Source of the DNA: Candidatus Poseidoniaceae archaeon
Lineage (GTDB): Archaea; Thermoplasmatota; Poseidoniia; Poseidoniales; Poseidoniaceae
Direction of reading: 5' to 3'
DNA: 59,770 nt
Assembly: GCA_949373095.1 (NCBI GenBank)
Contig: CASIBY010000020.1
Span: 1-59,770 of the forward strand
The notes under the pieces were generated by a model. That model was not told the DNA's origin. It did no database searches and saw only the letters and a program-made list of their open reading frames with translations. Position 1 is the stretch's first letter, and each line of letters begins with the position of its first letter. This document shows, piece by piece, positions 6,283 through 56,523 of the stretch. Both the position numbers and the translations under genes were made by a program.

Positions 6283-6302
6283 GGGGAGGGTTCAAAGGCT
6301 AC

Positions 6303-7763: not shown

Positions 7764-9169
7764 TCATGCTACCAGATGGTGCAGAAGACAGATTGCTTGC
7801 TAACGCTCAACAAATCGTTGATGCTTGCTCTTCCATAGGCGTTCAACAATGGGACCTCGTAGGATTCCAATCCTACGGCCATGAACTTGACATCGAAGCC
7901 GGGAAAATCACCATGGCTGGTGGCGGCGGTGAGGGTGGATTTGGAATTCGAGTAGTTGAAGATGGTCGATTTGGATTCGCTCATCTAGTCGATGTTTCTG
8001 GTGCTGAACGAGCAGTTCAACAAGCGTTGAGTATCGCTCGCAAATCACCTTCGATTGCAAATTTTGTTCTTCCAAGTGAACAAGCCGCCACAAAGGTGGG
8101 AGGGATGTGCGATACAAACATCCTCAATCTTGGCCCTGAAGACTTGCTTGAGCAGGCTGATGCATTACTAAACGCGGTGAAAAGTGCTGATGAGCGTGCT
8201 ATAGTGACTGGAGGAGGCGTAGGAGTTTCTGCGACAGCATCTTGTCTTCTCAACAGTGAAGGAATCCTAGATAGTGGATTGACGACATCCCACGGCCTTG
8301 GAGTTCAAGTCACCATTGACAACGATGGAAAGATGACCAGCTCTTACCAAGGTGATTCCTCGAGGGCAAAGATGGTTGATGTTCCTGATTGTATTGAACT
8401 TGCTGTGGATTGGGCTCTACGGACTCAGAATCCTATTGAAGTTGACCCTGGGGCCTCCGATGCTCCGGTTTTGATGACGAGTGAAGGGTTCTCTCCTCTG
8501 TTCTCCATGGTTGTTCCACCGGCTATGATGGGTGAAAAGTTGGTTCGAAAGGAATCCTTCTGGACAGGGAAAATGAATCAGAATGTCATGGCCGAAGACC
8601 TCTCAATCGTCGACAATGGCCTTCTTGAAGGTGGTTTTTCTTCGGGTTCACGTGACGGTGAAGGAGTTCCAAAGCGGAAGCAAAGTTTGGTTGAATCCGG
8701 GCGATTAGTGAACATGCTTTGGTCAACTCGGGATGCAGCCCAGCAAGTCGCAGAAGGACGTATTGATGTAGCACAATCTACCGGTTCAGCCGTAAGTAGA
8801 GGTCATCAATCACCTCCATCCACCGGAGCCTCTGAACTCATGATGACATCCTCAAAAGGGAGTCAAACATTTGATCAGATGCTTGATCAAATGGGCGATG
8901 GATATGTTGTAAACGGTGTCATGGGCGCTCATACTGCTAATCCAACAAGCGGCGATTTTTCAGTCACTACGAGCAGTATTTTACGTGTTGTTGGCGGGGA
9001 AATTATGGGTCCGCTTAAGCAAGCAGGGCTCTCGGGAAATCTTGCAAAGGCTCTAGCAGGGAACGTTATCCTCGGAGATGACGTTCGCAGACAAGGCTCT
9101 TATTCATCAGGCAGCATGCATTTGCCCGATGTGTTGTTAATGGAAGGCCTACGCATTAACCCTGCATAA
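7760..9169 (+). CDS. tldE: TldE/PmbA family protein, partner of TldD
   Basis: This 469-residue protein has the TldE/PmbA fold features: an N-terminal domain with GKITMAGGGGEGGFGIRV, and a C-terminal part with GSRDGEGVPKRKQSLVESG and MGAHTANPTSGDFSVTTSS. It lacks HExxxH, as expected for the non-catalytic subunit. It starts at ATG 7760, overlapping the tldD stop by 4 bases. The second Met (7766) is an alternative start. The stop is at 9167-9169, followed by a 165-base gap before RPA. Confidence 0.9.
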   Translation: MIMLPDGAEDRLLANAQQIVDACSSIGVQQWDLVGFQSYGHELDIEAGKITMAGGGGEGGFGIRVVEDGRFGFAHLVDVSGAERAVQQALSIARKSPSIANFVLPSEQAATKVGGMCDTNILNLGPEDLLEQADALLNAVKSADERAIVTGGGVGVSATASCLLNSEGILDSGLTTSHGLGVQVTIDNDGKMTSSYQGDSSRAKMVDVPDCIELAVDWALRTQNPIEVDPGASDAPVLMTSEGFSPLFSMVVPPAMMGEKLVRKESFWTGKMNQNVMAEDLSIVDNGLLEGGFSSGSRDGEGVPKRKQSLVESGRLVNMLWSTRDAAQQVAEGRIDVAQSTGSAVSRGHQSPPSTGASELMMTSSKGSQTFDQMLDQMGDGYVVNGVMGAHTANPTSGDFSVTTSSILRVVGGEIMGPLKQAGLSGNLAKALAGNVILGDDVRRQGSYSSGSMHLPDVLLMEGLRINPA

Positions 9170-9334
9170 GTCAATATCAGACAAAATCAAAAGCCATTCT
9201 TTATGGCCTGTCGTCGTTGGTGTACCAGTCCATGGAGGTAAAGGGAGTGTTATATCTGAACCAAACCGCACGAAAGCCCGCAGCCTGTTCTCCGTACAGG
9301 TGTCGAACAACAATGTCTTACGGAGGGTCGTTTG

Positions 9335-11020
9335 ATGTCTGAAGAAAAGTATGCAGACTATGTGCAAGCGGTCATAAAAGAATGTCCAGATGCCGAACCA
9401 GCAGAGGTTGCCTCTGCTTTCGCAAAATACGAGGATGAATTTTACATTCCACCCCAAGACGCAATGCGTTCAGTGCTTCGTAGATTCAAGAGCGGAACAG
9501 GTCCTGCAGCTACAAGTAAGGCCACTCGCCAAGAACGGGAAACCAAAAAAGTCGCTACTCTCGCAGAATTGAGTGGTGATGATCGGGATATCGAAATCGA
9601 AGTCGCCGTCATGACGCACAACATTCGAGACCAACTTATTCGTGGAGAAGAGAAGCAAATTGCATTTGGATTCCTTGAAGATAACCCTTGGGAAGAAGGA
9701 GGAACAAAAACTCGCTGGGATTACAAAGATTGGGGACCTCATGCCAACCTCGCAGCAGGGAGCATCGTTCGTATTGAAGGTGCGAGCGTTAACGAATACA
9801 ATGGTAAAATGTCTCTCAATATCAATCAGTCTACAGGTATTGTCGTCCTCAAAGAAGGGGTTGCTACAACCGTTTCAACCAATGACCCCATTGAGATTAG
9901 CAGTGTCCCTTCAGACGGCTATATCTGCGTTGTTGGAAGAGTTCTCACATCCCGTCCAGATCAAATTCACCGAAAGGACGGGTCCGGTTCAATTGAGGTC
10001 GTCCGTGGCCGAATTGCCGACGGAACAGGTACGATTGGTTTTCTCTCATGGGAGCCTTTCGACCACGAAGTTGGATCATTGCTCAAGATTGATGGCGCAC
10101 AAGTTCGGAGTTTCCGAGATACGCCAGAATTGAATTTCGGACGAACAACTCGTATCGAAGTATATCACGATGCTAACTTCTCGGATTTGGATACGCTGTC
10201 AAACAGCACCTCTCTTTCCATCTCACAGTTCCGTGATGGCTCAAGGGATGTAGATGCAATCGTCCAAATTACCGAATGGAATAAACGAAGCTTCACTCGT
10301 GATGGCGAAGAGAAGTTCCTTTGGTCAGGACAAATAGCAGACCCTTCCGGACGCTGTCGAATGAGCGCTTGGCAGGAACTGCCTATCGCAGAAGGAGATT
10401 TACCGGTAACGGTTCGAATCAAAGGCGTTCGAATTAGAGCATGGCAAGGTATACCAGATGTGACAGTGGACAACGCAGACCAGGTGGAAATCTTGGCCAG
10501 TCCTCCGTGGGATGAAGGCATTGACCTTAGCAATCACTCGGTTGAAGTATCGCTCACAGAGATGGTCAGTGGCCCAAGCCGAGTTGGCATTGAAACCACA
10601 GGACTTATTGTCAGTGTTCGGGACGACTCAGGATTGATTCGTCGCTGCACAGAATGTCGCCGTGTGCTCAGAGATGGGGCATGTGCAGACCACGGTCCTA
10701 ACGAAGGAAACGAGGATGTACGTCTACGACTTGTTGTGGACCATGATGGTTCCACGGCAGCAGTCCTCGTCAACAAGGAAGCTACTCTTTCTGCTCTGGG
10801 AATGACCTATGAAGCGCTTCAAGGGTCCGTCAAAGAACACGGAGATGCAGGCTTTGTTCAACAAGTCAGAGAACTTCTGCTCGGAAGAACAGTAGTTGTC
10901 TCCGGACGAAGTATTGTCGATGAACAAGGTGCAATGTTGCTTTGTGATCACTTGGAAGCACCTGCTTCTGATTCACAACTTAGAGCAACTGAGTTGCGAG
11001 CCCTGTGGGGGTGGGCTTGA
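9335..11020 (+). CDS. rpa: Replication protein A (single-stranded DNA-binding, multi-OB-fold)
   Basis: This is a 561-residue euryarchaeal RPA. An N-terminal helical domain (about 1-60) is followed by OB-fold regions, including APHANLAAGS-like and GRIADGTGTIGFLSWEPF strands, and a Cys-rich zinc-finger region (CTECRRVLRDGACADHG, around residue 435). RPA coats single-stranded DNA in replication and repair. The chosen start is ATG 9335, which has GGAGGG at 9322-9327; a TTG one codon earlier is less likely. The stop TGA overlaps the ATG of the partner gene (TGATG). Upstream, 9284-9300 holds a small inverted repeat (CCTGT, 7-base loop, ACAGG) of unknown use. Confidence 0.88.
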   Translation: MSEEKYADYVQAVIKECPDAEPAEVASAFAKYEDEFYIPPQDAMRSVLRRFKSGTGPAATSKATRQERETKKVATLAELSGDDRDIEIEVAVMTHNIRDQLIRGEEKQIAFGFLEDNPWEEGGTKTRWDYKDWGPHANLAAGSIVRIEGASVNEYNGKMSLNINQSTGIVVLKEGVATTVSTNDPIEISSVPSDGYICVVGRVLTSRPDQIHRKDGSGSIEVVRGRIADGTGTIGFLSWEPFDHEVGSLLKIDGAQVRSFRDTPELNFGRTTRIEVYHDANFSDLDTLSNSTSLSISQFRDGSRDVDAIVQITEWNKRSFTRDGEEKFLWSGQIADPSGRCRMSAWQELPIAEGDLPVTVRIKGVRIRAWQGIPDVTVDNADQVEILASPPWDEGIDLSNHSVEVSLTEMVSGPSRVGIETTGLIVSVRDDSGLIRRCTECRRVLRDGACADHGPNEGNEDVRLRLVVDHDGSTAAVLVNKEATLSALGMTYEALQGSVKEHGDAGFVQQVRELLLGRTVVVSGRSIVDEQGAMLLCDHLEAPASDSQLRATELRALWGWA

Positions 11021-11952
11021 TGCAACGACAACGTATCGTACGTCAGCCAGCATTCCTCATGCTCGCTTCGGAATTCGGAACAGCTACATTGAATGAGAAA
11101 GGTTCGGGAGAATTTGACCCCTCTTTCGTAATTACAAAATTAGGTTCAAAAGCAAACAGAGTCGTGGTTTGCGGACTTTTGGAGCGACTCGAAATCCGAG
11201 AAACCAGCAATGGCGCAACACTCTATCAAGGTCAGCTTAGGGATCCAACAGGCTTGCATTACTTCTCCGTTGGAGATTATAATTCTGAAACCATGCGAGA
11301 AATGTCCAGCCAGTGGGCTGGCCGCACCGAAGAGGGAGAACCAATCCTTCTCATGATGACGGCAAAAACGCGATGGTACCAGACCGATGAAGGTGCTGTC
11401 TACACCTCGCTACGACCAGAAGAGGCATGTGAAGTAACTCGGGATGTTTATGCGAACTGGCTTTTAGATGCATGTGAGGTTACAATGGCCCGCATGAAGG
11501 CATATACCGCCTCTTTGGAACTTGAGGCCACCATGGATGCCTACGAACGAAGTGACCTTCCAAGTGGGATGAAGACGGGACTTTTGGCTGCTAGAAATCA
11601 TTACGATGAAGTTGACCTTGAACCCTTCAATCTCAATCTAATGCAAGCATTAGATATTGCCGAAGGACGAATGGCTGCGGCTACAACTCCACCGCCAATG
11701 GTCCGTCTCCCTGACGGTGACGAGCCCGCCGCAGAAACCGGTGACGGTGAACTTCGAAGTTTTATCCTTCATGTAGTTCAGCACTTTGATCAAGGCGATG
11801 GAGTCGATTTCAATACGATTCTGAAGAATGCAGCAGCACGGGGGTACGTTCGTGAACAAGCAGAAGCCATGCTCGATGAATTGGCGGATAGTGGCGATGT
11901 TGACGAGCCTCGTTTCGGATGGTTTAGAGCACTCAAGGCCAAAGAAGAATAA
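11020..11952 (+). CDS. RPA-associated protein (OB-fold plus winged helix)
   Basis: This 310-residue protein matches the archaeal RPA-associated family encoded next to RPA (COG3390 type). It opens with RQPAFLMLASEF, followed by an OB-like region (FVITKLGSKANRVVVCGLLE and YQGQLRDPTGLHYF). A helical linker leads to a C-terminal winged-helix region (about 240-305) with FILHVVQHFDQGDGVDF and AEAMLDELADSGDV. The ATG at 11020 overlaps the RPA stop by one base; an in-frame GTG at 11005 would overlap more. The partners are expected to act together on single-stranded DNA. This is known for the family and inferred here. Confidence 0.85.
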   Translation: MQRQRIVRQPAFLMLASEFGTATLNEKGSGEFDPSFVITKLGSKANRVVVCGLLERLEIRETSNGATLYQGQLRDPTGLHYFSVGDYNSETMREMSSQWAGRTEEGEPILLMMTAKTRWYQTDEGAVYTSLRPEEACEVTRDVYANWLLDACEVTMARMKAYTASLELEATMDAYERSDLPSGMKTGLLAARNHYDEVDLEPFNLNLMQALDIAEGRMAAATTPPPMVRLPDGDEPAAETGDGELRSFILHVVQHFDQGDGVDFNTILKNAAARGYVREQAEAMLDELADSGDVDEPRFGWFRALKAKEE

Positions 11953-23184: not shown

Positions 23185-25203
23185 TTAGCCATGCCGGCCA
23201 AAATGATGGTCTAACGAATCAATGGGGATCCGAAGGGAAGTTGGTCTACCGTGGACACAAGCCCACGGGTTTGGAATTCTACGCATGTCTTCTAACAAGC
23301 GCCTCATTTCGGGGAGAGTGAGCGATTGGTTGGCCTTTACGGCGCCTCGGCAAGCGTTCATGAATGCGATGTGGTCTTTTTTGGCTTCAATGGTGGCTAA
23401 AGGCCCCTCGTCGCCCGAGATGTCCTGTAATACATCTAGGAAGAAGGAGCGAATTTGTTCCCCTTCAATCAATTGAGGTGATGCTTTTAGATGCCATTTA
23501 TCATCAGAGCGTTCAAGATGGAATCCCAACTCATGCAGACGCGCTTGATTCGCATCAACCACGGCGGATTGACGTGCATCAAGGTTCAAATTCAAAGCCT
23601 CAAGACGAGATTGCGGTTCCCACAACTGCCCCGAGTTCCGTAAACGCTCGAACCTAATACGCTCATGGAGGGCATGCTGGTCGATCAACAAGAGTTCATC
23701 TTCGGCTTGAACCAAGATGTATGAATTAGCGAATTGAGCAAGAGGTTCCATGGGGGGAAGGTCGTTCAATACGCCTTCAAGGGGAGCCTCTGTACTGGGT
23801 GAATGTTGAACTCCCATGCCTGCATGACGATGCAATGTGCGTTCTGCTGATGATAGGGCTGGCGCAATCGGTTTTCCTTCACTGGTTGGTAGAAGCGTTT
23901 GGCCGAGCGGGGAATGGGATACAGGACGAGCCTTCTCTTTTGCCGGTGCATCTTCAGCCATCTCTCCAGTCAACGCCAATTGTTGACCTGCTGCAATGGC
24001 CCATGCAGGAGGAGCACTTCGTAACGTGGGCGTTGGAACAGGGGCGTTATCAGTGAGTCCAGCTGCTTGCTGTATAGCATCATCGGATTTGAGGACCTCC
24101 TTCTTTGGGGCTAGGTAAGTTTCCACCAACTTAACATTTGGTCCACCGGAGAGGCCTCGTAATTCGGGTATTCCTCCAGTTGCGTCGGGTTGAGTTGGGA
24201 TTGATTCTAATGAATGAGCAATACAGCGCTCAAGCCGCTCAAGAACTCGCCAAGAATGGCGAAGTCGGACTTCCCGTTTAGTGGGGTGAACATTCACGTC
24301 CACTTCTCCGGGGGGACAGGTGAGGTTGAGTACCGCTAAGGGGTGTCTTCCCTGCATGAGTCGAGTTTTGTATCCTCTGCGAACTGCCTGTAAAAACGGA
24401 CCTGCAGCAACAGGTCTACCGTTGATAAGGACATGGATATCATCGCCTTTTCCACGGGTAATGTCTGGCGTACTGATCCATCCTGACCATCGCTCTTGAC
24501 CAGGGGCGTTTTGATCTTCATTTGGTTGTTTCAGCGGTAACATTTCGTTAGCTTGGCTGCCAAGAATGTCATACAAGCGGTCCATCATATCCTCTGTGGA
24601 TGGTACATTGAGTAGGCTTCTGGTTTCACTCTTGAGGTGAAAGGCAGTCTCGGGGTGTGCAAGTGCATGGCTGACCACAACGTCAACAATTCGAGAGGTT
24701 TCAGTCTCAGCCCTTCGTTGGAATGCCAGCCTTGCCGGTGTGTTTTGGAACAGATGCTCAACACTTATTCTCGTTCCAGCCCCCATTCCAATCGGTTCAA
24801 GTCCTGATTTGATTCCGTCTTCCATAACGATTGTAGCGCCTTCCATGGTGGGAGGTTTACTGGAAATCTCCAATCTGGCGACCATGCCAATACTTGCAAG
24901 TGCCTCACCTCTGAATCCAAGTGAATTTATTTCAGCTAAATCTTTCTTTGATTGCAACTTTGAGGTCGCATGTCTGTCAAGGGCCTTTGGAAGGTCCTCA
25001 GGATGAATTCCAGAGCCGTTATCCTCTACAATAAGACGGTCAAAACCACCTCGTTCAACGGTAATTGTTATCTCTGTAGAATGAGCATCAAGACTGTTTT
25101 CAATCAATTCCTTGACCACTTGGGCAGGCCGTTCTACAACCTCGCCTGCAGCAATATGGCCGATGGTCGTATCGTCCAGTTGTATAATGCGACTTGGTTT
25201 CAT
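23185..25203 (-). CDS. mutL: DNA mismatch repair protein MutL (endonuclease type)
   Basis: This 672-residue MutL has the GHKL ATPase motifs ELIENSLDAHS, DNGSGIHPEDL and GFRGEALASIG at the N-terminus. A Pro/Ala-rich linker (about 380-465) precedes the C-terminal dimer domain. That domain carries DQHALHERIRFERL, which fits the endonuclease motif DQHA-x2-E-x4-E. ACRGAVKAN and CVHGRPT complete the metal site. So this MutL should nick DNA itself and not need MutH. Its ATG overlaps the mutS stop by 4 bases. MutSL in archaea is thought to come from bacteria. Confidence 0.93.
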   Translation of the reverse strand: MKPSRIIQLDDTTIGHIAAGEVVERPAQVVKELIENSLDAHSTEITITVERGGFDRLIVEDNGSGIHPEDLPKALDRHATSKLQSKKDLAEINSLGFRGEALASIGMVARLEISSKPPTMEGATIVMEDGIKSGLEPIGMGAGTRISVEHLFQNTPARLAFQRRAETETSRIVDVVVSHALAHPETAFHLKSETRSLLNVPSTEDMMDRLYDILGSQANEMLPLKQPNEDQNAPGQERWSGWISTPDITRGKGDDIHVLINGRPVAAGPFLQAVRRGYKTRLMQGRHPLAVLNLTCPPGEVDVNVHPTKREVRLRHSWRVLERLERCIAHSLESIPTQPDATGGIPELRGLSGGPNVKLVETYLAPKKEVLKSDDAIQQAAGLTDNAPVPTPTLRSAPPAWAIAAGQQLALTGEMAEDAPAKEKARPVSHSPLGQTLLPTSEGKPIAPALSSAERTLHRHAGMGVQHSPSTEAPLEGVLNDLPPMEPLAQFANSYILVQAEDELLLIDQHALHERIRFERLRNSGQLWEPQSRLEALNLNLDARQSAVVDANQARLHELGFHLERSDDKWHLKASPQLIEGEQIRSFFLDVLQDISGDEGPLATIEAKKDHIAFMNACRGAVKANQSLTLPEMRRLLEDMRRIPNPWACVHGRPTSLRIPIDSLDHHFGRHG

Positions 25204-26942
25204 GATGCGTCCTCCATCGTAGATTTCAGGCTGTAGAGTGCTTCTAGCGCTTGCCTTGGTGACAATTCATCAATATTGGTAGAGTTCAACATGTTGAGAA
25301 TGGTTTCAATGTATTCTGGAAGTGGCTTTTGCTCAGCAGGCTCTGAGGTTGAAATTGCCGCTGCAGCGAAATAACCCATCAAACTTGCTTGTCCGTGGTC
25401 TCTTGATTGCGGAGTCCCCTGTTCCCCAGCTTTTGCTCCTTGGGCTTGTTGTTCCAAAAAAGCAAGCAGGTCTGTGGCCCGCTCTACCACATTTCTTGGT
25501 AAGCCTGCGAGCGCTGCAACCTGAACTCCATATGATTCATCGCAAGGGCCGTCTGCAACAGTATGGAGGAATTTGAGGCCCCCATCGGTACTTGCTACCT
25601 GCACATGGACATTGTTGAGTCCGTTCACCTGGCCTTCAAGGCCGATGAGCTGATGATAATGAGTGGCGAAAAGTGTCCTTGAACCAACACGCTCACAGAG
25701 GTCTTCAGTAACTGACCAAGCGATGGAAAGTCCATCAAATGTGGAGGTGCCCCGGCCAATTTCATCGAGAAGAATCAAGGATTTTTCTGTGGCGCGCTTG
25801 AGGATATGAGCCACTTCAATCATTTCCATCATGAAGGTTGAGCGGCCTCTTTTGAGGTCGTCACTCGCTCCCACACGGGTGAATACTCTGTCGACCAGAC
25901 CGATTCTTGCTTTCTTTGCAGGGACGAAACACCCTGATTGGGCGAGGATAGTTGTGAGTGCTGCAGTTCGAAGGTAGGTCGATTTCCCTCCCATATTTGG
26001 TCCAGTGATCAGCAAGAACTTTCGTTTTGAATCCATTTTGAAATCGTTGGGAACAAATCCAGATTGGGTTTCAAGCACGGGATGTCGAGCACCTTCAAGC
26101 TTCAATGTGGTTTGCTCAACCATTTCGGGGCGGGTCCATCCTCGCTCTCTACTCACTGATGCAAAGCATTGCAATACGTCGATTGAAGCAACTTTCCGAG
26201 CGATTTCTGCCAGTGCGGGTGCGTGCTGGATGCAATATGTTCTGAGTTCCAGGAATTTCCTATATTCAAGTTCTTTAAGTTTTGAATCAGCACCCAGAAG
26301 TAGATCATCTCGTTCTATCAGTTCTTCAGTCGTATATCGGGAGCCATTTGTCATCTGCTGCTTACGACGCCACTCAGCTGGCACCTTTTCTTCATTAGAT
26401 TTCGTGACCTCGATAAACCAGCCAATTTGTCGGTTCATTCTAACTTTTAGAGATGGAATTTCAAGTTGATTTCGTAAATCGGATTCAAGTTGGGTGAACC
26501 ATGCTTTTCCTTGTGATGTGACCTCTCTCAAACGGTCAATTTCTTCATCAACTCCCTCCCTCAAAAGAGACCCGTCTCTCAATCCAAGTGGTAATTCGTC
26601 CCTGAGTGTGCCACGAATTAGAGTCGCCATTTCAGACAAATGGTCCAAATCTGCACTGAGGTGTTTTAGCAGTGGGTCATCAGCATCTTGACACCATTGC
26701 ATCACCGCAGGCATTCGCTCAAGAGCCAGGGCGGTAGCGAGTACATCTCTTGCATTGCTTCTGCTGTATGATAATTGAGTTGAAAGTCGCTCCATATCAC
26801 GCATACCATTCAGAGATTGTCTCAAACCGTCAAGCCTTCGGGCTGAACGGGACAGTGAGGCAACGGCTTGATGACGAGCATCAATGGCACTTAATGAGGC
26901 AAGAGGATGGAGAATCCAAGTTTTTAGCAGTCTTCTTCCCAT
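25200..26942 (-). CDS. mutS: MutS, C-terminal part (core, clamp and ATPase domains); 3' half of frameshifted mutS
   Basis: The 580-residue reading begins at an internal Met (MGRRLLKTWILHPL) that matches the MutS core domain rather than a real start. It contains core and clamp helices, then the ABC ATPase: Walker A GPNMGGKSTYLR, DLKRGRSTFMMEM, Walker B LILLDEIGRGTSTFDG and the ATHYHQL switch. The C-terminus has a helix-turn-helix-like dimer region. Between this ORF and the upstream one, codons in the right frame continue through LELTSTLAGEYDGSLL and RCRTA. The break is thus a single-base loss near 27017-27022, not missing domains. The stop overlaps mutL. Confidence 0.85.
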   Translation of the reverse strand: MGRRLLKTWILHPLASLSAIDARHQAVASLSRSARRLDGLRQSLNGMRDMERLSTQLSYSRSNARDVLATALALERMPAVMQWCQDADDPLLKHLSADLDHLSEMATLIRGTLRDELPLGLRDGSLLREGVDEEIDRLREVTSQGKAWFTQLESDLRNQLEIPSLKVRMNRQIGWFIEVTKSNEEKVPAEWRRKQQMTNGSRYTTEELIERDDLLLGADSKLKELEYRKFLELRTYCIQHAPALAEIARKVASIDVLQCFASVSRERGWTRPEMVEQTTLKLEGARHPVLETQSGFVPNDFKMDSKRKFLLITGPNMGGKSTYLRTAALTTILAQSGCFVPAKKARIGLVDRVFTRVGASDDLKRGRSTFMMEMIEVAHILKRATEKSLILLDEIGRGTSTFDGLSIAWSVTEDLCERVGSRTLFATHYHQLIGLEGQVNGLNNVHVQVASTDGGLKFLHTVADGPCDESYGVQVAALAGLPRNVVERATDLLAFLEQQAQGAKAGEQGTPQSRDHGQASLMGYFAAAAISTSEPAEQKPLPEYIETILNMLNSTNIDELSPRQALEALYSLKSTMEDAS

Positions 26943-27013
26943 TGCAGTTCTGCATCTATTTAGGGTCGAGAGTAAACTTCCGTCATATTCTCCGGCGAGG
27001 GTTGATGTGAGTT

Positions 27014-27856
27014 CTAGATTCTTAGTGTGGTTTGGTCAAGCAGTAGATGGCCCTTTTCTTCTACGATTTCCACATCTCGAATTGGAACCTCATCTTGGAT
27101 GTGAACCGTGGCGAGATAGTCAGCGGCCAGCCCTGTTGCAGCAAGGGCCATCGGGGCGTGGTCCATGTCTAAATGGCCAAGGTCCGCTACATTGAGCATC
27201 TTAGTCAACCGTTCTTTACTTCGTTGCTTTGAACTCTTGTGCTGGCTTACCATGACGCCTTGTAAGTTTAGGAAAATCCTACCCAATTCGGGATGCTCAG
27301 CATCTTTTGGAGGGAGCACCCATTCGGTTGGATTCCAGCGTTGCAGTTCGTCCATTAAACGGACGAAGCGATCAGCCCCTTCGTGGCTACTCGCCCATGC
27401 TTGCCCGGTAGATGCATCAAGGATGCAAAGGCCAACGGTATTGTTGTCAAGTACAGTTGCTGCAAGTAGGGAACGTTCTTCGCTCTCAAGAAGCCCTTCT
27501 TCATACAAACTTCCTGGGGTAAAGACTCGCGTTACAACACGTTCAAGGAGTTTGGCTCCTTCTCGCAAGTTTTCTTCTTGTTCAGCAACGGTTACCTTGT
27601 GCCCCGCACGCAGCATGGTACGAAGGTGGTCTTCTAGTCCGTGCCAAGGAAACCCAGCCATAGGAATTGGGTTTTCAGAATTCTTGTCCCGAGATGTTAA
27701 TGCAAGTCCCAATACTTCTGCCGCAACTACTGCATCTTCATGGAAAAGTTCGTAAAAATCACCCATGCGGAAGAATAGAATGGTGTCAGGGTGCTCTTCT
27801 TTGATGTCAAAGAATTGGTCCATCATCCCTCTTTTTGTCATGCCATCCACCTCCAT
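27014..27856 (-). CDS. mutS: MutS, N-terminal part (mismatch-binding and connector domains); 5' half of frameshifted mutS
   Basis: The 280-residue piece has the MutS mismatch-recognition domain with FFRMGDFYELFHEDA. The Phe-Tyr-Glu is the wedge motif of MutS1. The connector domain follows, and the piece stops at LLLDQTTLRI. In intact MutS that stretch continues as 'R-N-L-E'. Here the minus strand reads AGAATCTAG, giving a stop at 27014-27016; one extra A would restore the frame. ATG 27841 (MTKRGMMDQFF) is an alternative start. With both halves joined the protein would be about 880 residues, normal for MutS. Confidence 0.85.
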   Translation of the reverse strand: MEVDGMTKRGMMDQFFDIKEEHPDTILFFRMGDFYELFHEDAVVAAEVLGLALTSRDKNSENPIPMAGFPWHGLEDHLRTMLRAGHKVTVAEQEENLREGAKLLERVVTRVFTPGSLYEEGLLESEERSLLAATVLDNNTVGLCILDASTGQAWASSHEGADRFVRLMDELQRWNPTEWVLPPKDAEHPELGRIFLNLQGVMVSQHKSSKQRSKERLTKMLNVADLGHLDMDHAPMALAATGLAADYLATVHIQDEVPIRDVEIVEEKGHLLLDQTTLRI

Positions 27857-27963
27857 TCCTTACGCTAGATGCGGAGGAAGTTGACGAGGGCACATGAAGG
27901 TTCTCGCCTTGGTTTGAGAAAACGGTGCATTTTAGCAACTTCATTGAAAGCAAGTCGATCCAA

Positions 27964-29933: not shown

Positions 29934-31712
29934 GTGCGAGTCGCAGTTTTGAAGGAAGACAATTGTCAACCAAAGAAGTGCAACGACGAGTGCCACGATT
30001 TTTGCCCTCCAGTTCGTAACGGACAAGAGTGTATCATTCTTGACGACAAAACTGGAAAGCCTCACATTTCTGAAAGCCTTTGTATCGGCTGTGGAATCTG
30101 TATCAATAAGTGCCCACATGATGCGTTGATCATCGAAAATCTACCGAGTGAACTCGAATCCGATATGATTCACCGATTCTCAATGAATGGATTTCGCTTG
30201 TTTCGCCTACCAACACCTTCCAAAGAAAGCGTTGTTGGAATTCTCGGGCCAAACGGGATGGGTAAGTCCACTGCAATCAATGCACTTTCTGGAAGGACCA
30301 TTCCGAATTTAGGGGATTGGATGGACACTGAGCCGGAATGGGACTCGGTGATTGAATCTCTGCCCCGCGGCGAGTTACGTGATTTCTTTATCGCTGTTCA
30401 AGCAGATAAAATTCGTGTTGCAGTCAAACCCCAGAACGTAGATCGTCTGCCAAAACGAGTCAAAGGAACCGTCCGTGAATTGTTGATGAAAGTTGATGAA
30501 CGCAATATTATGGTTGAAACTACCGAGGATTTGGGAATTGACCACCTCCTTGACCGGACCATCCAGCAATTATCTGGTGGTGAATTACAACGGATGGCGA
30601 TCTGTGCCACCATACTCAGAGATGTTGACGTATACTTCTTTGATGAGCCTTCATCTTATCTGGATATTCACGAGAGAATGCGAATCGTTCGGATCATTCA
30701 AAAACTCGCTGAAACAAAGCGAGTCATCGTTATTGAACACGATTTAGCGGTTCTCGATGTTCTTGCTGACCTGGTTCACATTGTGTATGGGAAAAAGGGA
30801 GCATTTGGAATCTTTACTCCTGCTCGCTCAACTCGTCAAGCCATCAATTCCTATCTTGATGGCTTCCTACCCGGAGAAAACGTGCGAATTCGAGATAAAC
30901 CCATCAAGTTCTTGCGTCATCGTGATCGAAGTGCAGAAATCGGAACTCCAGTTGTAAGTTGGGGTGGCCTTGAGAAAACACTTGGTGAGTTTAAACTTAC
31001 ATCGGGAGATGGCGCAGTTCATCGCTCAGAAGTTGTCGGTGTTGTTGGGCCAAACGGTACGGGTAAAACCACGATGATCAAACTTCTCGCAGGAGAACAT
31101 GAATACGACGGAGGCTGGGTTACGGCTGACGCAAAGATTTCATACAAACCTCAGCATATCGACGTAGATATTGACGGCTCAGTTCAACTTTGGCTTGATA
31201 GTGAACTCGGCCCACGATGGCGCAGTGGTGAGTTCAATGTGAACGTGATTCGCGCCTTAGGAGTTGACCAATTACTGCCGAAGCGCGTCAAGAAACTATC
31301 TGGTGGGGAACGCCAAGCTGTTTCCATCGCTATTTGCTTGGGAAGAGATGCAGACCTCTATCTCTTGGATGAACCCTCAGCACATTTGGACGCAAATGCT
31401 AGGATGGAGGCTGCTAAAGCTATCCGTAGAACCATGGAAGCGAATGAAAAGTCAGCCTTTGTCATCGATCACGATGTCTATTTCATTGACATCGTATCAG
31501 ATTCTCTCTTGGTCTTTGAAGGCGAAGGAGGTGTCCAAGGAAAGGCAACTGGACCCTTTAACCTAAGAGAAGGAATGAATCGCTTTTTGTCAAGTGTGAA
31601 TGTAACCTTCCGCAGAGATCATGATTCTCGACGACCACGAATCAACAAGCGTGAGAGCAGAAAGGATCGTGAACAACGTAACGTTGGTGATTACTATTCT
31701 TACGATGCGTGA
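29934..31712 (+). CDS. abce1: ABCE1/Rli1 ribosome recycling ATPase
   Basis: At 592 residues this is full-length ABCE1. The N-terminal iron-sulfur domain has CQPKKCNDECHDFCP and CIGCGICINKCP (two 4Fe-4S clusters). Two ATPase domains follow: Walker A GPNGMGKST with signature LSGGELQRM and FDEPSSYLD, then GPNGTGKTT with LSGGERQAV and LDEPSAHLD. It splits ribosomes after termination and links to initiation. Translation starts at GTG 29934, with GGAGGG at 29923-29928. It is followed by the two Fe-S nucleases, 42 bases downstream. Confidence 0.96.
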   Translation: MRVAVLKEDNCQPKKCNDECHDFCPPVRNGQECIILDDKTGKPHISESLCIGCGICINKCPHDALIIENLPSELESDMIHRFSMNGFRLFRLPTPSKESVVGILGPNGMGKSTAINALSGRTIPNLGDWMDTEPEWDSVIESLPRGELRDFFIAVQADKIRVAVKPQNVDRLPKRVKGTVRELLMKVDERNIMVETTEDLGIDHLLDRTIQQLSGGELQRMAICATILRDVDVYFFDEPSSYLDIHERMRIVRIIQKLAETKRVIVIEHDLAVLDVLADLVHIVYGKKGAFGIFTPARSTRQAINSYLDGFLPGENVRIRDKPIKFLRHRDRSAEIGTPVVSWGGLEKTLGEFKLTSGDGAVHRSEVVGVVGPNGTGKTTMIKLLAGEHEYDGGWVTADAKISYKPQHIDVDIDGSVQLWLDSELGPRWRSGEFNVNVIRALGVDQLLPKRVKKLSGGERQAVSIAICLGRDADLYLLDEPSAHLDANARMEAAKAIRRTMEANEKSAFVIDHDVYFIDIVSDSLLVFEGEGGVQGKATGPFNLREGMNRFLSSVNVTFRRDHDSRRPRINKRESRKDREQRNVGDYYSYDA

Positions 31713-31754: not shown

Positions 31755-33497
31755 ATGCCGGTAGGTCAGCCTCCACTTGGTGGTCCTCTCGGCCGCTCAA
31801 GAAATCGGCTCTCTGCAAGTTCTCTCACCACTTACCTTCGTTGTGAAAAGCAATGGTTTTTGGCTTATCAAGTGGGGTTGCACGGGCCGCTTCGCCCATC
31901 ACAAGTGGCGGGAATAGTGCTTGAGGATGCTTTGAGTGAATTGTTTATGATGCATCCACCTCAACTCAATTCGGAACAAGAACTTCTTGATTGGGTAGAA
32001 CCTCATATTGTGACTCAGGCAAAGAAAGCCCATGATGTTGGGCGAAGCGATTGGGATGAAAGTTTGTGGAGGGAAGATGGGGCATCATGGGATGATGTCG
32101 CCGTTGAAACATTCATAGACAGGATTCGTGGTGGTTTTCTGCTGTTTTTAGAAGAAGTGAGCCGATGTTTCGAGGAAAACGGAGGCCCTTACCTTGAAAC
32201 AAGAAGAAGCGGTTCTCAACCCTTTTCAGTACCCGAGCCGTCATGGGGGACAATTCCAGTTTTCCCCCGTTCAGAAAAAGTACCCGACATGGATTTGAGG
32301 CAATGGGAAATTGAACAATCTCCAACATGGTCCAGCAAAGGTGAGCCAGTGACCTGGAACGAGGCATGGGAATGTGCTCGGCCGTGGGTCAAAGACCCCC
32401 GTGTGCACCAGCCTCAACGCCTCTACAGTCCTGATGGTTGGGCTTCTGGTGAATTGGACCTCGTGCTGCGTTGGGACGGTACAATACGCATTATTGACAT
32501 CAAATCCGGCTCTTCAGAATCTTCCTTTGCAGCGTCTCTTGAGCATCAGTTGCGTTTCTATTCTTGGCTCTGGTCGCAAACACATGATGGGCAGCGGGTT
32601 GACGGTATGGAGGGGTGGTATCTTTCTGGCCCTGAGAGGGTTCAGTATGCACCTCCTGGTGAATCAGAGATAGAAACTCTAACTGCCTTCTACAAGGAAC
32701 AACATCAGGCCATGCAAAGCCTTGCTGAAGGCGTTGTAGCCTTCCCTTCATCACCCAAATCCGCATGTTCAGGGGAGGCCGCTGGTTGCTTTTGGTGCCA
32801 GGTTTCTCGAAGTGAATCATCCGAATGGAACCTTCACGAATCCCTTCAATGGATTTCAGAACTCTCCTCGCCATCTATCTCCTCACCCTATGCTCCGTTG
32901 TCCAGCATTCAAGGAAGAGTTTCAGTCAAAGGAACACTCTCAGGCGCATGGGGGCCGTTACCGAATCATTTCTCTGAACCAGTTCTTGGTGCAGTTCTGG
33001 TGGGGGGGACTCAGCACATTGCGCTCGAGGAAAGTGAGCCTGGTTCATTTCCAACTCTTCACCAAATTGAACAAAACAATGTTCTCGTACACAATGCTCT
33101 ACCTGGGGTTTGGAGAGATCAACCTAGGCTCTATGTCGATAAGGGAACTGAAATTATCCCAATTGAGGATGTTGGAGACGGCGATTCAATTGAGGTGACT
33201 CGCCTTGGTTTGTTGCGCACACGAGCTAATGTCAAAGGATATGTTTTGTCCATTCGAAGACGGAGTGGTCGTAGAATTGATGGGAAACCTTGGAGCATGG
33301 TGGCCTTCATGCTTTGGGACGGCACTCATGTGGCGGAAGTTGTCGCCTTTGGGAACAGCATTAATCAGCGAATTTTGAATTTGAAACCGGGTTCATTAGT
33401 GGCCATGACTGGCGTAGAAATCGGGTGGCGTTCGGGTTTGCTTCAATTACGAATTGATTCCCGGAAAACTCGAATGGAACCAACGTTTTTGCGATGA
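31755..33497 (+). CDS. Fe-S PD-(D/E)XK (RecB/Cas4-like) nuclease with C-terminal OB-fold, paralog 1
   Basis: This 580-residue protein opens with LSASSLTTYLRCEKQWFL, the N-terminal helix and first cluster Cys of Cas4/AddB/Dna2-like nucleases. The active site is GELDLVLRWDGTIRIIDIKSG (D...DxK), with QLRFYSW as the following Q-x3-Y motif. Three further Cys (CSGEAAGCFWC, about 335-348) complete a likely 4Fe-4S site. The C-terminus (about 470-575) is beta-rich, with ANVKGYVLSIRRRSGRRIDG and AEVVAFGNSI, and looks like an OB-fold. No helicase domain is present. The next gene is a clear paralog. It may process single-stranded DNA; that is inferred. Confidence 0.78.
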   Translation: MPVGQPPLGGPLGRSRNRLSASSLTTYLRCEKQWFLAYQVGLHGPLRPSQVAGIVLEDALSELFMMHPPQLNSEQELLDWVEPHIVTQAKKAHDVGRSDWDESLWREDGASWDDVAVETFIDRIRGGFLLFLEEVSRCFEENGGPYLETRRSGSQPFSVPEPSWGTIPVFPRSEKVPDMDLRQWEIEQSPTWSSKGEPVTWNEAWECARPWVKDPRVHQPQRLYSPDGWASGELDLVLRWDGTIRIIDIKSGSSESSFAASLEHQLRFYSWLWSQTHDGQRVDGMEGWYLSGPERVQYAPPGESEIETLTAFYKEQHQAMQSLAEGVVAFPSSPKSACSGEAAGCFWCQVSRSESSEWNLHESLQWISELSSPSISSPYAPLSSIQGRVSVKGTLSGAWGPLPNHFSEPVLGAVLVGGTQHIALEESEPGSFPTLHQIEQNNVLVHNALPGVWRDQPRLYVDKGTEIIPIEDVGDGDSIEVTRLGLLRTRANVKGYVLSIRRRSGRRIDGKPWSMVAFMLWDGTHVAEVVAFGNSINQRILNLKPGSLVAMTGVEIGWRSGLLQLRIDSRKTRMEPTFLR

Positions 33498-33552
33498 AGA
33501 GGCAGGGAGCCTTGCGTGAGAATTGAAAAGGGGTGGGCTCAGGTTTACCTCT

Positions 33553-35406
33553 ATGCCCGTCCAACTCGCAGACGCAACTACTGACACAGTTGGACCCTAT
33601 TCTCGGCTCTCGGCAAGTCAGGTGAACACCTACAAAGCCTGTCCACGTTTATGGTATTATGAGAAAGTCTTGCGATTTCGTATGCCACAGATTCCAGTTC
33701 TCTTTGTAGGCCGTGCTGTTGAAGAAGCCGTCTGTAGAGTCTTGAGGGAATCTCCAGCACTAATTCATGCATCGGCCCCTTCAGACGCTCACGACCCCTC
33801 TCCTCTTGATGAGGATGGCATTCCAGACCGTAACACGGCAAGCGGATGGCCTTCACAGATGCTCCTGCCGCTGGAAGAAAGTGATATCCCTGCCTCAAAA
33901 GAGGAATTGCTTGAATGGGCTATGGCCCGATGTGAACGACATCTCCCCGTCGCTCTTGAACGGGTCCGACTCGACTGGGAAGGAGACGATAGAAAAGCAG
34001 GTGATTGGAAGAGCGTTGACACGAACCGATGTCTTGAGATGACCAAAGCAGGGCTTCGTTTCCATATCGATGAAGTTGAACGTTGCTTTACAGAAAAAGG
34101 AGGCCCCAGCCTCCAGTCTTGGCGTGACGGAGAACGACCACAATGGCCGGCACCAGACGGTTTTGCCTTTGACTCATTTTCTACCGGACATCCATTCGCT
34201 GCCTCAGGTGACCCAAGCTGGTTGGAATCATGGGAGGTCTCTCGGCCTTGGTTTGTTGACCCAGATGCTGCTAAATTTTCCATGAATGCCATACACCCAG
34301 AACATTGGTTTCAGGGAGAATACGACCTTGTCTACAATTGGGATGGGGCAATAACCATTGTTGATTTGAAAGCCAGCCTTGGAGCGAACGACCGTTCGGG
34401 AGATTATGTTCGCCAACTCCGCATGTACGCAATGCTTTGGTACATCACTCATGGTCGCTCTGAAACCGTTACTTCTCTCCAAATTTGGTATTTGGGTCAT
34501 CCCTCAATCAAGCATATTGATGTCCCATCTCTCGAAGAATTGCGAGAGATGGAGGGTGAACTCCAAGAAATGTGGGTGAGTCTGAAGCAGGAACAACCAA
34601 CGCGGGATGAATGTCCGCCAGAGCCTGCATCAATGCGAGGTTTTGCGCCGGGTGGTAAACCAAAAGACCCACCTAAAATGGTCCGCTGTGATCGTTGTGA
34701 TTGGAAAGAAGTATGCCCTGCAGGAGGGGGTTCAGATGAAGCACCGCTTCCCGAGTCTCTTCAATTACCTGGATTTTCAGGAATGACACGTATTGACGAA
34801 ATAGGATCGCTAAATCCCCGTGCAAGTATTCGAGGAGAACTCTTCAGTGTGAGTGTCCCTACTGGTGGAAAGCCACCTAAAATTGTCGTTCAGCAAGGAC
34901 ATTATTTTGCAAACGTCAATATTATTTCCCACGAACATCGTGATGGTGGTAATACTTGGCCTGAGGGTCTGAAAAAGGGAGATGAAGTTCTCGTAGAAGA
35001 TGCTATATTCTCTACAAATTGGAAGGGAGAAATCGTTCTGAAAATCGACCCGTTTGCTCGTGTCGTACTGGATGATTCTCCACATGAAGATTCTCACGAC
35101 CTCATGGCTTACAACGCACGAAGAAATGTAGGCGGGAGAATCGTCTACACCTACGAAAAGAGTGGAATGAGTCGTAATGGAAAGACTTGGCGTCGTCGGG
35201 GTTTGATGTTGATGGACCATACCGGGGCCATGAAGGTTGAAGGTTGGTTTGACGATTGGAATAATCAATTTGGGATGGTTGAAGTAGGCGATATCGTGGT
35301 TATTGCTAACCTTGGTCTTGATGCTTGGGCTACAGAGGTCCGTGGAGATTATTCGAAACAATCCCGGCTTCAAATCATTGAGCGAGTTGAACGCTCAACC
35401 TCCTGA
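33553..35406 (+). CDS. Fe-S PD-(D/E)XK (RecB/Cas4-like) nuclease with OB-folds, paralog 2
   Basis: From ATG 33553 this is 617 residues, paralogous to the preceding gene. It begins YSRLSASQVNTYKACPRLWY (first cluster Cys). The nuclease site is GEYDLVYNWDGAITIVDLKAS and the Q-x3-Y motif is QLRMYAML. The cluster is completed by CDRCDWKEVC (C-x2-C-x5-C), which fits the Dna2/AddB/Cas4 pattern better than the first copy does. Two C-terminal OB-like regions follow (about 430-520 and 530-610), the second with RNGKTWRRRGLMLMDHTG. Its end overlaps the convergent GG-protein gene by 12 bases. Confidence 0.8.
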   Translation: MPVQLADATTDTVGPYSRLSASQVNTYKACPRLWYYEKVLRFRMPQIPVLFVGRAVEEAVCRVLRESPALIHASAPSDAHDPSPLDEDGIPDRNTASGWPSQMLLPLEESDIPASKEELLEWAMARCERHLPVALERVRLDWEGDDRKAGDWKSVDTNRCLEMTKAGLRFHIDEVERCFTEKGGPSLQSWRDGERPQWPAPDGFAFDSFSTGHPFAASGDPSWLESWEVSRPWFVDPDAAKFSMNAIHPEHWFQGEYDLVYNWDGAITIVDLKASLGANDRSGDYVRQLRMYAMLWYITHGRSETVTSLQIWYLGHPSIKHIDVPSLEELREMEGELQEMWVSLKQEQPTRDECPPEPASMRGFAPGGKPKDPPKMVRCDRCDWKEVCPAGGGSDEAPLPESLQLPGFSGMTRIDEIGSLNPRASIRGELFSVSVPTGGKPPKIVVQQGHYFANVNIISHEHRDGGNTWPEGLKKGDEVLVEDAIFSTNWKGEIVLKIDPFARVVLDDSPHEDSHDLMAYNARRNVGGRIVYTYEKSGMSRNGKTWRRRGLMLMDHTGAMKVEGWFDDWNNQFGMVEVGDIVVIANLGLDAWATEVRGDYSKQSRLQIIERVERSTS

Positions 35407-54837: not shown

Positions 54838-54936
54838 TTGGTCCCCTCTCTTGAACGCAGCCTGCTCATGTGAATGAACGTATGTGTCTGAAAATTAATG
54901 TGCGTCATTGTGAAAGGCCAAAGGAACGATACAAAG

Positions 54937-56523
54937 ATGGGAGATTTGTCGGAATCCTTTAGGATGGGTCGCCCAAGCGTCGGCCTAGGAGGGGAATGTG
55001 TGAATTGCGGCTCATGTGCAGTGGTCATCCCTGATGACAGTATGTTTTGTCCTGAATGCGGCTCACGGCAAGACAATTCGATGGCTGGTGGATTCAATCC
55101 TCCTGCTCCTCAAAATTTACCACCGTTCCCACCTCAGCGTTCTTTTGACCCAGTATCGGGACAGGAACAGAGAATGCAACAAGAAAACAACTTGAATCAA
55201 ATGGGGCATATTCCTCAAGATACGCTACAAGGAATGGCACAAGGAATCCAGCAAAATCAGAACCTTCCCCCTGGAGTTTACCCTAATCAGCCGCAACAAG
55301 GTGGCTTCCCTCCAACCCAATTTCCTCCTCAACAACAGCAGCCTCCACAACGATCCAATGTAGCACCTGTCTCAGACATGCCGATATTACCCCGTGGTCC
55401 GTCCATTGCAAGTGGAGCTGCCCCAGCCAATAACGGCAATGTTTCCCCGATGAATCCGGGAGGGACAAAAATTGCTCAAAATCCAGCCGCATCACCAACT
55501 GATGCTATGGTAAACCGTCTTGCTGAGGCAGAGCGGGCAGTTAAGGATGAACGAAGAAGCCAATGGCTCTCAATGAATCAATCTCCAGCATCAAGCGTTC
55601 TCGCTAACCTTGGAGGCGGAGAACTTCCTTCCCACCTCCGGGTCGGCAACGATGCGAACAACCCAGCGGCAGAAATCATGGCTGGAGCTCTTGGCCAAAC
55701 ATCCAATGATGCTCCCAACGATGCCCTCCTTCGCCGCATCTCTGAAGTGGCCATCCGCCGAGTTGCTCGAAAGCGAGGTGTTGCAGTTGAAGCACCTCAA
55801 ACCAAACTAAACGGTGACGTCTTTGAAGTAAACGTGACTTATGTTGACGATGGACGAGTTCTTGATACACCAGAGGATTTGGCTCAAGCCTTTGAACATG
55901 CTATTCAAACAGAACTTGCACTCAAGGGCTATGATCTGGCCTGTGCTGTATCCATGTTCCGCTCTAAAGACGGTAAGACAGAGAAACTCGGAGCAGAACC
56001 AGAGGAAGATATGTTCGCCTGTGAGATTTGTGACGGCCTCGTGAAAGACAGCGATCCAACATGTCCACATTGTGGCGCAGTATTCGAAGAAGAAGAGGAA
56101 GAAGAGCCAGAAGCACGGGCGCCTCCTGCTCGGGGCGGTCCACCCGGTCCAAAGAAGAGCGGCGGTCCACCCGGTCCAAAGAAGAGCGGCGGTCCACCCG
56201 GTCCAAAGAAGAGCGGCGGTCCACCCGGTCCAAAGAAGAGCGGCGGTCCACCCGGTCCAAAGAAGAGCGGCGGTCCACCCGGTCCAAAGAAGAGCGGCGG
56301 TCCACCCGGTCCAAAGAAGAGCGGCGGTCCACCCGGTCCAAAGAAGAGCGGCGGTCCACCCGGTCCAAAGAAGAGCGGCGGTCCACCTGGTCCAAAGAAG
56401 AGCGGCGGTCCACCCGGTCCAAAGAAGAGCGGCGGTCCACCCGGTCCAAAGAAGAGCGGCGGTCCCCCCGGCGGTCCAAAACGTGGGCCTCCTGGCGGTC
56501 CAAAACGTGGTCCTTCTCGCTGA
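54937..56523 (+). CDS. Double zinc-ribbon protein with low-complexity linker and Gly-Pro-Lys repeat tail
   Basis: From ATG 54937 this is 528 residues (ATG 54898 adds 13). An N-terminal zinc ribbon, CVNCGSC with CPECGSRQ, leads to a long Pro/Gln/Asn-rich stretch (about 60-190). A predicted folded domain follows (about 235-345; LLRRISEVAIRRVARKRG and FEVNVTYVDDGRVLDTPEDL). A second ribbon (CEICDGLVKDSDPTCPHCG) and an acidic run (EEEEEE) precede twelve copies of GGPPGPKKS and a GGPKRGPP tail. The basic tail suggests nucleic-acid or rRNA contact. It sits 12 bases before the broken helicase. Function unknown. Confidence 0.65.
   Translation: MGDLSESFRMGRPSVGLGGECVNCGSCAVVIPDDSMFCPECGSRQDNSMAGGFNPPAPQNLPPFPPQRSFDPVSGQEQRMQQENNLNQMGHIPQDTLQGMAQGIQQNQNLPPGVYPNQPQQGGFPPTQFPPQQQQPPQRSNVAPVSDMPILPRGPSIASGAAPANNGNVSPMNPGGTKIAQNPAASPTDAMVNRLAEAERAVKDERRSQWLSMNQSPASSVLANLGGGELPSHLRVGNDANNPAAEIMAGALGQTSNDAPNDALLRRISEVAIRRVARKRGVAVEAPQTKLNGDVFEVNVTYVDDGRVLDTPEDLAQAFEHAIQTELALKGYDLACAVSMFRSKDGKTEKLGAEPEEDMFACEICDGLVKDSDPTCPHCGAVFEEEEEEEPEARAPPARGGPPGPKKSGGPPGPKKSGGPPGPKKSGGPPGPKKSGGPPGPKKSGGPPGPKKSGGPPGPKKSGGPPGPKKSGGPPGPKKSGGPPGPKKSGGPPGPKKSGGPPGPKKSGGPPGGPKRGPPGGPKRGPSR
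56134..56457 (+). repeat. Twelve tandem 27-bp repeats (GGPPGPKKS coding)
   Basis: The unit GGCGGTCCACCCGGTCCAAA plus GAAGAGC is repeated 12 times without gaps, ending at a diverged GGTCCCCCCGGC copy. Copies are identical apart from one silent change (CCT for CCC near 56391), which points to recent expansion or homogenisation. Because 27 is a multiple of three with no stop in any frame, long spurious frames appear on both strands. Confidence 0.95.

Follow-up and report, generated by a model that had tools for sequence, protein, structure and literature searches.

What do two adjacent genes do in a marine archaeon when each encodes a nuclease that appears to carry its own single-strand-binding module? 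The genes lie on contig CASIBY010000020.1 of a Candidatus Poseidoniaceae archaeon (assembly GCA_949373095.1), and the whole stretch of 59,770 nucleotides that was analysed is called the window here. Gene A (31755..33497, plus strand, 580 amino acids) and gene B (33553..35406, plus strand, 617 amino acids) stand head to tail downstream of the ABCE1 gene. Their open reading frames, their matches to the Pfam family PDDEXK_1 and their predicted models describe each product as a PD-(D/E)XK nuclease with iron–sulfur (Fe–S)-type cysteines and two C-terminal oligonucleotide/oligosaccharide-binding (OB) folds. Gene B is counted from an ATG; a TTG at 33523 would lengthen the product to 627 amino acids. 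An earlier note, drawn from the sequence alone, had placed the two genes at these positions and after ABCE1, correctly on both points, and had suggested a heterodimeric end- or flap-processing enzyme. Our preferred answer, which we hold with about even confidence, is that A and B are paralogous, probably active housekeeping nucleases acting on single-stranded DNA (ssDNA) ends or flaps in genome maintenance in the Poseidoniales.

Nuclease domains and catalytic residues

Both proteins score above the PDDEXK_1 cut-off (A, 1.5e-17, 64.8 bits; B, 3.3e-14, 53.9 bits; cut-off 22). Residue conservation was counted over 90 distinct rows of A and 111 of B, with identical rows merged and frames of at most 480 amino acids or at most 250 bits left out. 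The core of A spans residues 201–325 (32355..32729, plus strand); its E233, D235, D248, K250, Q265 and Y269, together with E57, are retained in all 90 rows. In B, the row alignment gives a core of residues 221–348 (34213..34596, plus strand) with E256, D258, D271, K273, Q288 and Y292, and the set matching the catalytic residues of A is kept in 108 of the 111 rows; the exceptions are one row cut at its N-terminus (L107) and two that each hold an undetermined letter (L128 and L140). The six core residues of B themselves stand in every row except L128 and L140. Scores above the cut-off and intact catalytic residues thus place A and B in the PD-(D/E)XK superfamily, as the earlier note had proposed, and the Q-x3-Y motif that it reported is seen in both (Q265–Y269 and Q288–Y292). 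It had also described the pair as lacking a helicase, which agrees with the absence of any Pfam helicase match in A or B and with models that contain nuclease and OB parts only. The NurA model of Pfam matches neither protein, and the Cas4 model stays below its cut-off of 65 (B, 29.8 bits; A, 12.3 bits).

PDDEXK_1 matches occur at nine places in the window's genome, some within other proteins. Far from A and B, on another contig of this genome (C1; locus L208, 1479–2681, minus strand), a 399-residue protein has PDDEXK_1 and Cas4 matches and, by eye, hydrophobic stretches in its middle.

Predicted tandem OB folds at the C-termini

The AlphaFold2 models are confident for A (mean pLDDT 86.8, pTM 0.86) and for B (84.1, 0.81) and share one layout. 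Helices make up the N-terminal part; a long insert, also helical, comes next, then the nuclease core and the cysteine region, and last come two successive beta units, whose strands, read from the secondary structure, follow the OB order. All four units are encoded on the plus strand. In A, the first covers residues ~376–470 (32880..33164; model strands 389–469; Foldseek matches to RPA, Teb1 and POT1) and the second residues ~484–575 (33204..33479; strands 490–567), where the tRNA_anti-codon OB model matches at 0.027, below its cut-off. In B, they cover residues ~415–510 (34795..35082; strands 423–506) and, for the second, RPA-like fold, ~518–612 (35104..35388; strands 523–610). The OB-like C-terminal regions announced by the earlier note are therefore present, and the lack of any such fold, which it had named as fatal to its proposal, is not what the models give; its extent needs correction, since there are two folds per protein and residues 450–580 of A, to which it pointed, span mainly the second.

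The best Foldseek match in the PDB is the same for both models: 4gop_C, a chain of an RPA heterotrimer (A, 4.3e-8; B, 3.5e-8), which we take to be the large subunit. Human RPA, Pyrococcus abyssi RPA, Teb1, POT1 and HIN domains are also among the best 50 rows. The profile of B matches archaeal RPA (Replication factor A, 8aa9) at 7.2e-4 over residues 522–586, and the RPA model NF005554 weakly matches within B of three second-family genomes (5.4e-5 to 8.4e-4). An RPA-type OB resemblance is thus found by structure for both proteins and by profile for B. Among the best 50 of 981 matches of B to viral models are a set of LEF-3/SSB-type ssDNA-binding proteins and a set of PD-(D/E)XK/RecB exonucleases, and two of these viral rows align over 459 and 499 columns (A0A8S5VVQ1 and A0A8S5RDL0).

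Cysteines of the putative Fe–S site

The four-cysteine claim, one N-terminal and three C-terminal, holds for both genes, which have the layout of the AddB/Cas4 type with one cysteine before and three after the core. In A these are C30 (31842..31844, plus strand; replaced by glycine in two rows) and, from the row alignment, C338, C345 and C348 in a C-x6-C-x2-C arrangement (32766..32798, plus strand); they are kept in 88, 74, 87 and 88 of the 90 rows. In B, C30 (33640..33642, plus strand) is present in 110 of 111 rows, with a gap in one, and C379, C382 and C388 (34687..34716, plus strand; C-x2-C-x5-C) in 111, 111 and 110. The ligands of B are nearly invariant; those of A drift or vanish. Among 26 inspected rows of A, the window and its closer relatives have the C-x6-C-x2-C spacing, which varies to x5 and x4 forms in L163, L164 and L165 and to C-x-C-x2-C in L158, L159 and L161; C-x2-C-x5-C occurs in ten rows (L139 and L141–L149). 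All four cysteines are gone in two loci of a single genus (L160 and L162; genus g9), in which the catalytic residues stay. Judged by this pattern of residues, A and B are candidates for binding a 4Fe–4S cluster. A fifth cysteine lies in the helical insert, at C138 of A (32166–32168; 90 of 90 rows) and C178 of B (34084–34086; 110 of 111), within a stretch R-C-F-x-E-x-G-G-P common to the window's A and B.

A probable old duplication

Profiles of 37 A and 38 B sequences align over 539 columns (probability 100, E 9.4e-66), so the two genes are full-length paralogs, OB part included, and the paralogy asserted in the earlier note is borne out. A search of the window's own genome with A, at E 0.001, yielded A and B alone. 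In a midpoint-rooted tree of 68 rows (L173 was omitted as an identical row), A (27 rows) and B (41 rows) are split by one branch with support 100/100, and each half holds both families. This fits one duplication before the family split, followed by loss of A in seven of 11 second-family genera. The inner branching of the halves is similar, not identical: among the A rows L139 joins L158 and L159 (99/94), among the B rows it joins L146–L149 (100/99), and the first family does not form a single group in either half.

Distribution and linkage

In a sample of 292 genomes of the phylum, the window's order (Marine Group II) is represented by 81, of which 78 match the B profile, as does none of the other 211; the 194 unlisted genomes without a B match were taken as outside the order, since rows were sorted by kinship. 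A search of 145 genomes of the class with protein A, with genes assigned by score and place among the matches listed, gave A in 69 of 70 first-family genomes, 11 of 54 second-family ones (four of 11 genera) and none of the 21 from the third family; the second and third families are presumably Thalassarchaeaceae and Marine Group III. Nine of the 11 second-family A genes were confirmed between ABCE1 and B. At 20 fetched second-family loci B occurs without A. Conversely, the two tested genomes of genus g9, which are 85 and 80% complete, have A but no detected B; in that genus a DnaQ-like exonuclease frame follows A (L160 and L162; Pfam was run on L160 only). Neither gene is found in G045 and G155 (same genus), where sequence is probably missing, since ABCE1 was not found either. 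Four further second-family genomes (G067, G093, G118 and G137) gave no match to B, with no check on ABCE1 there.

Outside the phylum, coverage consists of a peptide-pattern scan of genome contigs and of plasmid, phage and viral searches. The scan matched 90 stretches, of which 79 distinct loci were kept; all titles are archaeal except that of L129, a contig titled Rhodobiaceae bacterium that holds an archaeal A–B pair and is probably misbinned. Both genes are carried by 77 of the 79 loci, and the remaining two start at a contig edge. The plasmid, phage and viral-contig searches confirmed no relative (one gave 15 pattern hits, none confirmed); distant relatives outside the phylum are possible. 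Where both genes are full length they lie on one strand in all 83 parsed loci, some of which are one contig fetched twice, with a gap of 33 bases in the median (range 16–112, n = 78 measured loci). The earlier note had asked whether the pair always co-occurs and had held that unlinked genes in relatives would count against it: the linkage stands, constant co-occurrence does not, as A is absent from seven of 11 second-family genera, B is undetected in g9 and many relatives carry just one gene.

Constraint and the question of a heterodimer

A and B seem to be constrained by different parts, judging from pairwise identity and near-invariant columns. When the 77 loci that carry both genes are thinned to 56, the mean identity of A reaches 0.57 for the core, 0.53 and 0.59 for the two OB folds and 0.26 for the Fe–S region, a figure lowered by counting gaps as differences; for B the values are 0.60 in the core, 0.34 and 0.40 in the OB folds and 0.47 in the Fe–S region. 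Near-invariant OB columns number 35 of 187 in A and two of 191 in B. The contrast narrows when the main first-family clade is taken alone (45 loci; 54 of 187 versus 24 of 191); there OB identity is 0.60 and 0.65 in A and 0.41 and 0.52 in B.

Such complementary constraint, with OB folds held more strictly in A and the Fe–S region in B, argues together with the tight linkage for an obligate heterodimer (or an alternate oligomer) for processing DNA ends or flaps, in which one subunit would cut and its partner would hold. We regard this as doubtful. The OB contrast shrinks within the main first-family clade, as just described, and each gene occurs alone somewhere, B at the 20 second-family loci and A in g9, so that a heterodimer is possible but not needed. 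Co-evolution was examined by comparing distance matrices over 46 loci, thinned from 51 having all five genes, and gave no A–B-specific signal against the controls ABCE1, PAC2 and eIF2alpha: the partial rate correlation of A with B (0.48) is matched by those of A with PAC2 (0.44) and of B with eIF2alpha (0.47). The heterodimer of the earlier note is therefore not supported as it was stated.

A bolder version, which we think unlikely, has B cutting while A is turning from an Fe–S nuclease into an ssDNA-holding partner, the two forming a self-contained DNA-processing machine of the Poseidoniales. In A, the ligands would first have changed their spacing and later disappeared in one genus, with the OB folds remaining under strong constraint. 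A single chain would combine nuclease and RPA functions, and the two paralogs would share them out, in a lineage where no NurA is detected.

A proposed role in ssDNA processing

The preferred reading, active housekeeping nucleases for ssDNA ends or flaps, draws on two described enzymes. EXO5 resects open-ended ssDNA from 5' to 3', a direction enforced by RPA, and the strand enters its channel near the Fe–S region; in Dna2, an N-terminal OB fold packs on the nuclease domain and interacts with RPA1 (both as described in PMC8710748). By analogy, end or flap processing by A and B, with a built-in RPA part, is plausible. A free ssDNA end would thread a nuclease channel capped by the Fe–S cluster and by the helical insert that separates motif I from motif II, and the C-terminal OB pair would grip the same strand and set the side of entry, and with it the polarity; RPA plays this part in trans for EXO5, and the OB pair would play it in cis. 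B may be the general enzyme retained across the order and A a specialised copy whose weight has shifted to the OB part. At forks the substrates would probably be 5' flaps or overhangs; another likely one is the ssDNA that the AddAB-like helicase–nuclease of these genomes leaves behind. Paralogy, domains, intact catalytic residues, distribution and linkage come from the computations, whereas the ssDNA substrate, polarity, pathway, cluster occupancy and threading are inferences.

The reading is built on the PDDEXK_1 matches with their conserved catalytic residues, on a cysteine set that is near-invariant in B and on the RPA-like tandem OB folds; on the viral matches to LEF-3/SSB and exonuclease models and the lack of confirmed plasmid, phage or viral-contig relatives; and on the operon-like place of the genes, in a type of cluster that in other archaea adjoins PCNA, PriS and GINS15 genes (PMC2643942), the presence in this 60-kb stretch of genes for MutS, MutL and Hel308-like and RPA-like proteins, and the absence of NurA from 39 genomes of the order.

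Several observations weigh against it. The immediate neighbours of A and B are translation genes. HIN-domain structures rank high in the Foldseek results for both models, and OB folds can bind RNA, protein or double-stranded DNA as well. The Foldseek alignments listed have whole-query TM-scores of 0.10–0.17 and an rmsd above 10 Å, so that the agreement lies in the folds and not in the relative orientation of the OB pair. The profile of A matches RPA only weakly (0.046). The idea that the OB folds arose from the RPA-like protein of the window was rejected (hhalign probability 3.1 and 0.1%, not significant). Lastly, these genomes hold an AddA-like gene, so A and B are not necessarily their chief resection enzyme, and resection may not be the role of the pair.

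If RPA-like folds do act within the chain, the EXO5 rule that RPA sets direction would become testable by domain deletion. The A branch offers a natural series in which the cluster site is re-spaced and then gone with the catalytic residues kept, against which the purpose of the Fe–S cluster can be tested, and a candidate enzyme is added for widespread marine archaea in which NurA was not found.

Genomic setting

The genes have an operon-like setting between ABCE1 and PAC2/eIF2alpha. ABCE1 (29934..31712, plus strand) adjoins A at other loci too, with a median gap of 17 bases (range 5–166, n = 63), and PAC2 is opposite in orientation to B in 11 of the 14 A-bearing loci in which it was found. 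This position among translation genes (ABCE1, L10e, Nop10 and eIF2alpha), together with the weak tRNA_anti-codon match of A, could point to action on RNA or R-loops coupled to translation, in ribosome recycling or the handling of rRNA or tRNA. We consider this improbable: the relatives that the libraries name are DNA-metabolism nucleases, ssDNA or DNA binders make up most of the top OB matches, and ABCE1 is in none of the 20 fetched stretches of second-family loci having B but no A. Of those loci, 14 retain PAC2 and eIF2alpha, and in the four inspected (L152, L154, L156 and L171; Pfam was run on L154 only) a radical SAM frame lies upstream of B, preceded in three by a frame that by eye is pdxT-like. 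The L44E–S27E–aIF2alpha–Nop10 cluster of archaea is described as adjoining genes for PCNA, PriS and GINS15 (Berthon and others, PMC2643942).

End resection is described as the work of AddAB in bacteria and of NurA–HerA in archaea (PMC9960219). NurA was found in none of 39 genomes of the order and in one of 21 of the third family, with seven of 14 control genomes positive. HerA was considered as a partner; its model PF01935, found in the order mainly on open frames of 526–969 amino acids, matches all 14 controls and is too general, and nothing was concluded. An AddA-like gene is present in 38 of the 39 order genomes and in none of the 21 of the third family, much as B is, which might suggest that A and B are accessory subunits of an AddAB-like helicase–nuclease. 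This seems distinctly improbable, as the genes are unlinked in the window's genome, with the AddA-like gene on contig C18 and A–B on C20. The earlier note's denial of a RecBCD partner is right at the locus alone, since the AddA-like gene lies elsewhere in the genome. One second-family locus (L209) holds an AddAB-like pair of a 1576-residue UvrD–PDDEXK protein (3307–8040) and a 1201-residue PDDEXK protein (8226–11834).

A defence role, as a solo-Cas4-like or phage-defence element, is suggested by weak matches of Cas4 and DruK models and is very improbable given that 78 of 81 order genomes have B, in a conserved housekeeping setting, the lack of confirmed mobile relatives and the absence of a CRISPR-like array from the window. 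This absence agrees with the earlier note, which saw no CRISPR partner; Cas1 and Cas2 were not searched for in the genome. PADLOC models match three of ten neighbours tested, namely ABCE1 (mad3, 5.9e-52), the Hel308-like helicase and, weakly, a purF-like protein, which we read as shared ATPase, helicase and phosphoribosyltransferase domains.

Elsewhere in the window, a helicase gene (3077–5686, plus strand; Pfam DEAD, archaeal helicase domain 4 and HTH_61) is presumably Hel308-like, going by its domains. An RPA-like ssDNA-binding protein (9332–11020, plus strand; 5.8e-63, below the model's cut-off) is encoded ~20.7 kb upstream of A, and such a gene is also 20–22 kb from A in G002, G004, G006, G039 and G058. 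The MutS gene of the window (25203–27859, minus strand) consists of two overlapping frames of 281 and 611 amino acids; relatives have a single frame of 877–886 amino acids in all four inspected, so the window shows an assembly error or a recent break. A nine-residue repeat, GGPPGPKKS, in ~12.5 near-identical 27-base units (99% matches; 56134–56471), forms the end of a protein with CxxC pairs (54898–56523).

Comparison with known systems

Like A and B, human EXO5 is a PD-(D/E)XK nuclease that stands alone, lacks a helicase and has cluster cysteines in both its N- and C-terminal parts; it differs in having a single nuclease domain, whereas A and B have two predicted OB folds per chain and form two paralogs (PMC8710748). 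Dna2 combines an EXO5-resembling nuclease with an OB fold; its OB fold, however, is N-terminal and it is fused to an SF1 helicase, while the OB folds of A and B are paired, C-terminal and without a helicase (PMC8710748). The nuclease domains of AddB and RecB share PDDEXK_1 with A and B, which differ in having no helicase-like region and in coexisting with separate AddAB-like genes. AddB has the same cysteine layout as A and B, and Cas4 has one cysteine plus three. Cas4 and solo-Cas4 are similar as nucleases with an Fe–S module that A and B weakly match; A and B differ in falling below the Cas4 cut-off, with no CRISPR array in the window. The OB pair of the RPA large subunit and archaeal RPA provide the tandem OB folds and the best Foldseek matches, but RPA is not known to have a nuclease.

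A word search through the main text of a Cas4 family survey (PMC5704561) gave no instance of 'OB-fold', and in the relevant parts of an Argonaute survey (PMC6299218) the OB folds mentioned belong to other proteins. In PMC, outside which most subscription journals lie, we recognised no paper describing this protein, and no family in Pfam, NCBIfam, PHROGs or PADLOC covers the whole architecture, in keeping with the earlier view that it does not obviously match a named system. The parts are known; what is new is their combination of a PD-(D/E)XK nuclease, Fe–S-type cysteines and two C-terminal RPA-like OB folds, without a helicase, in an old tandem pair.

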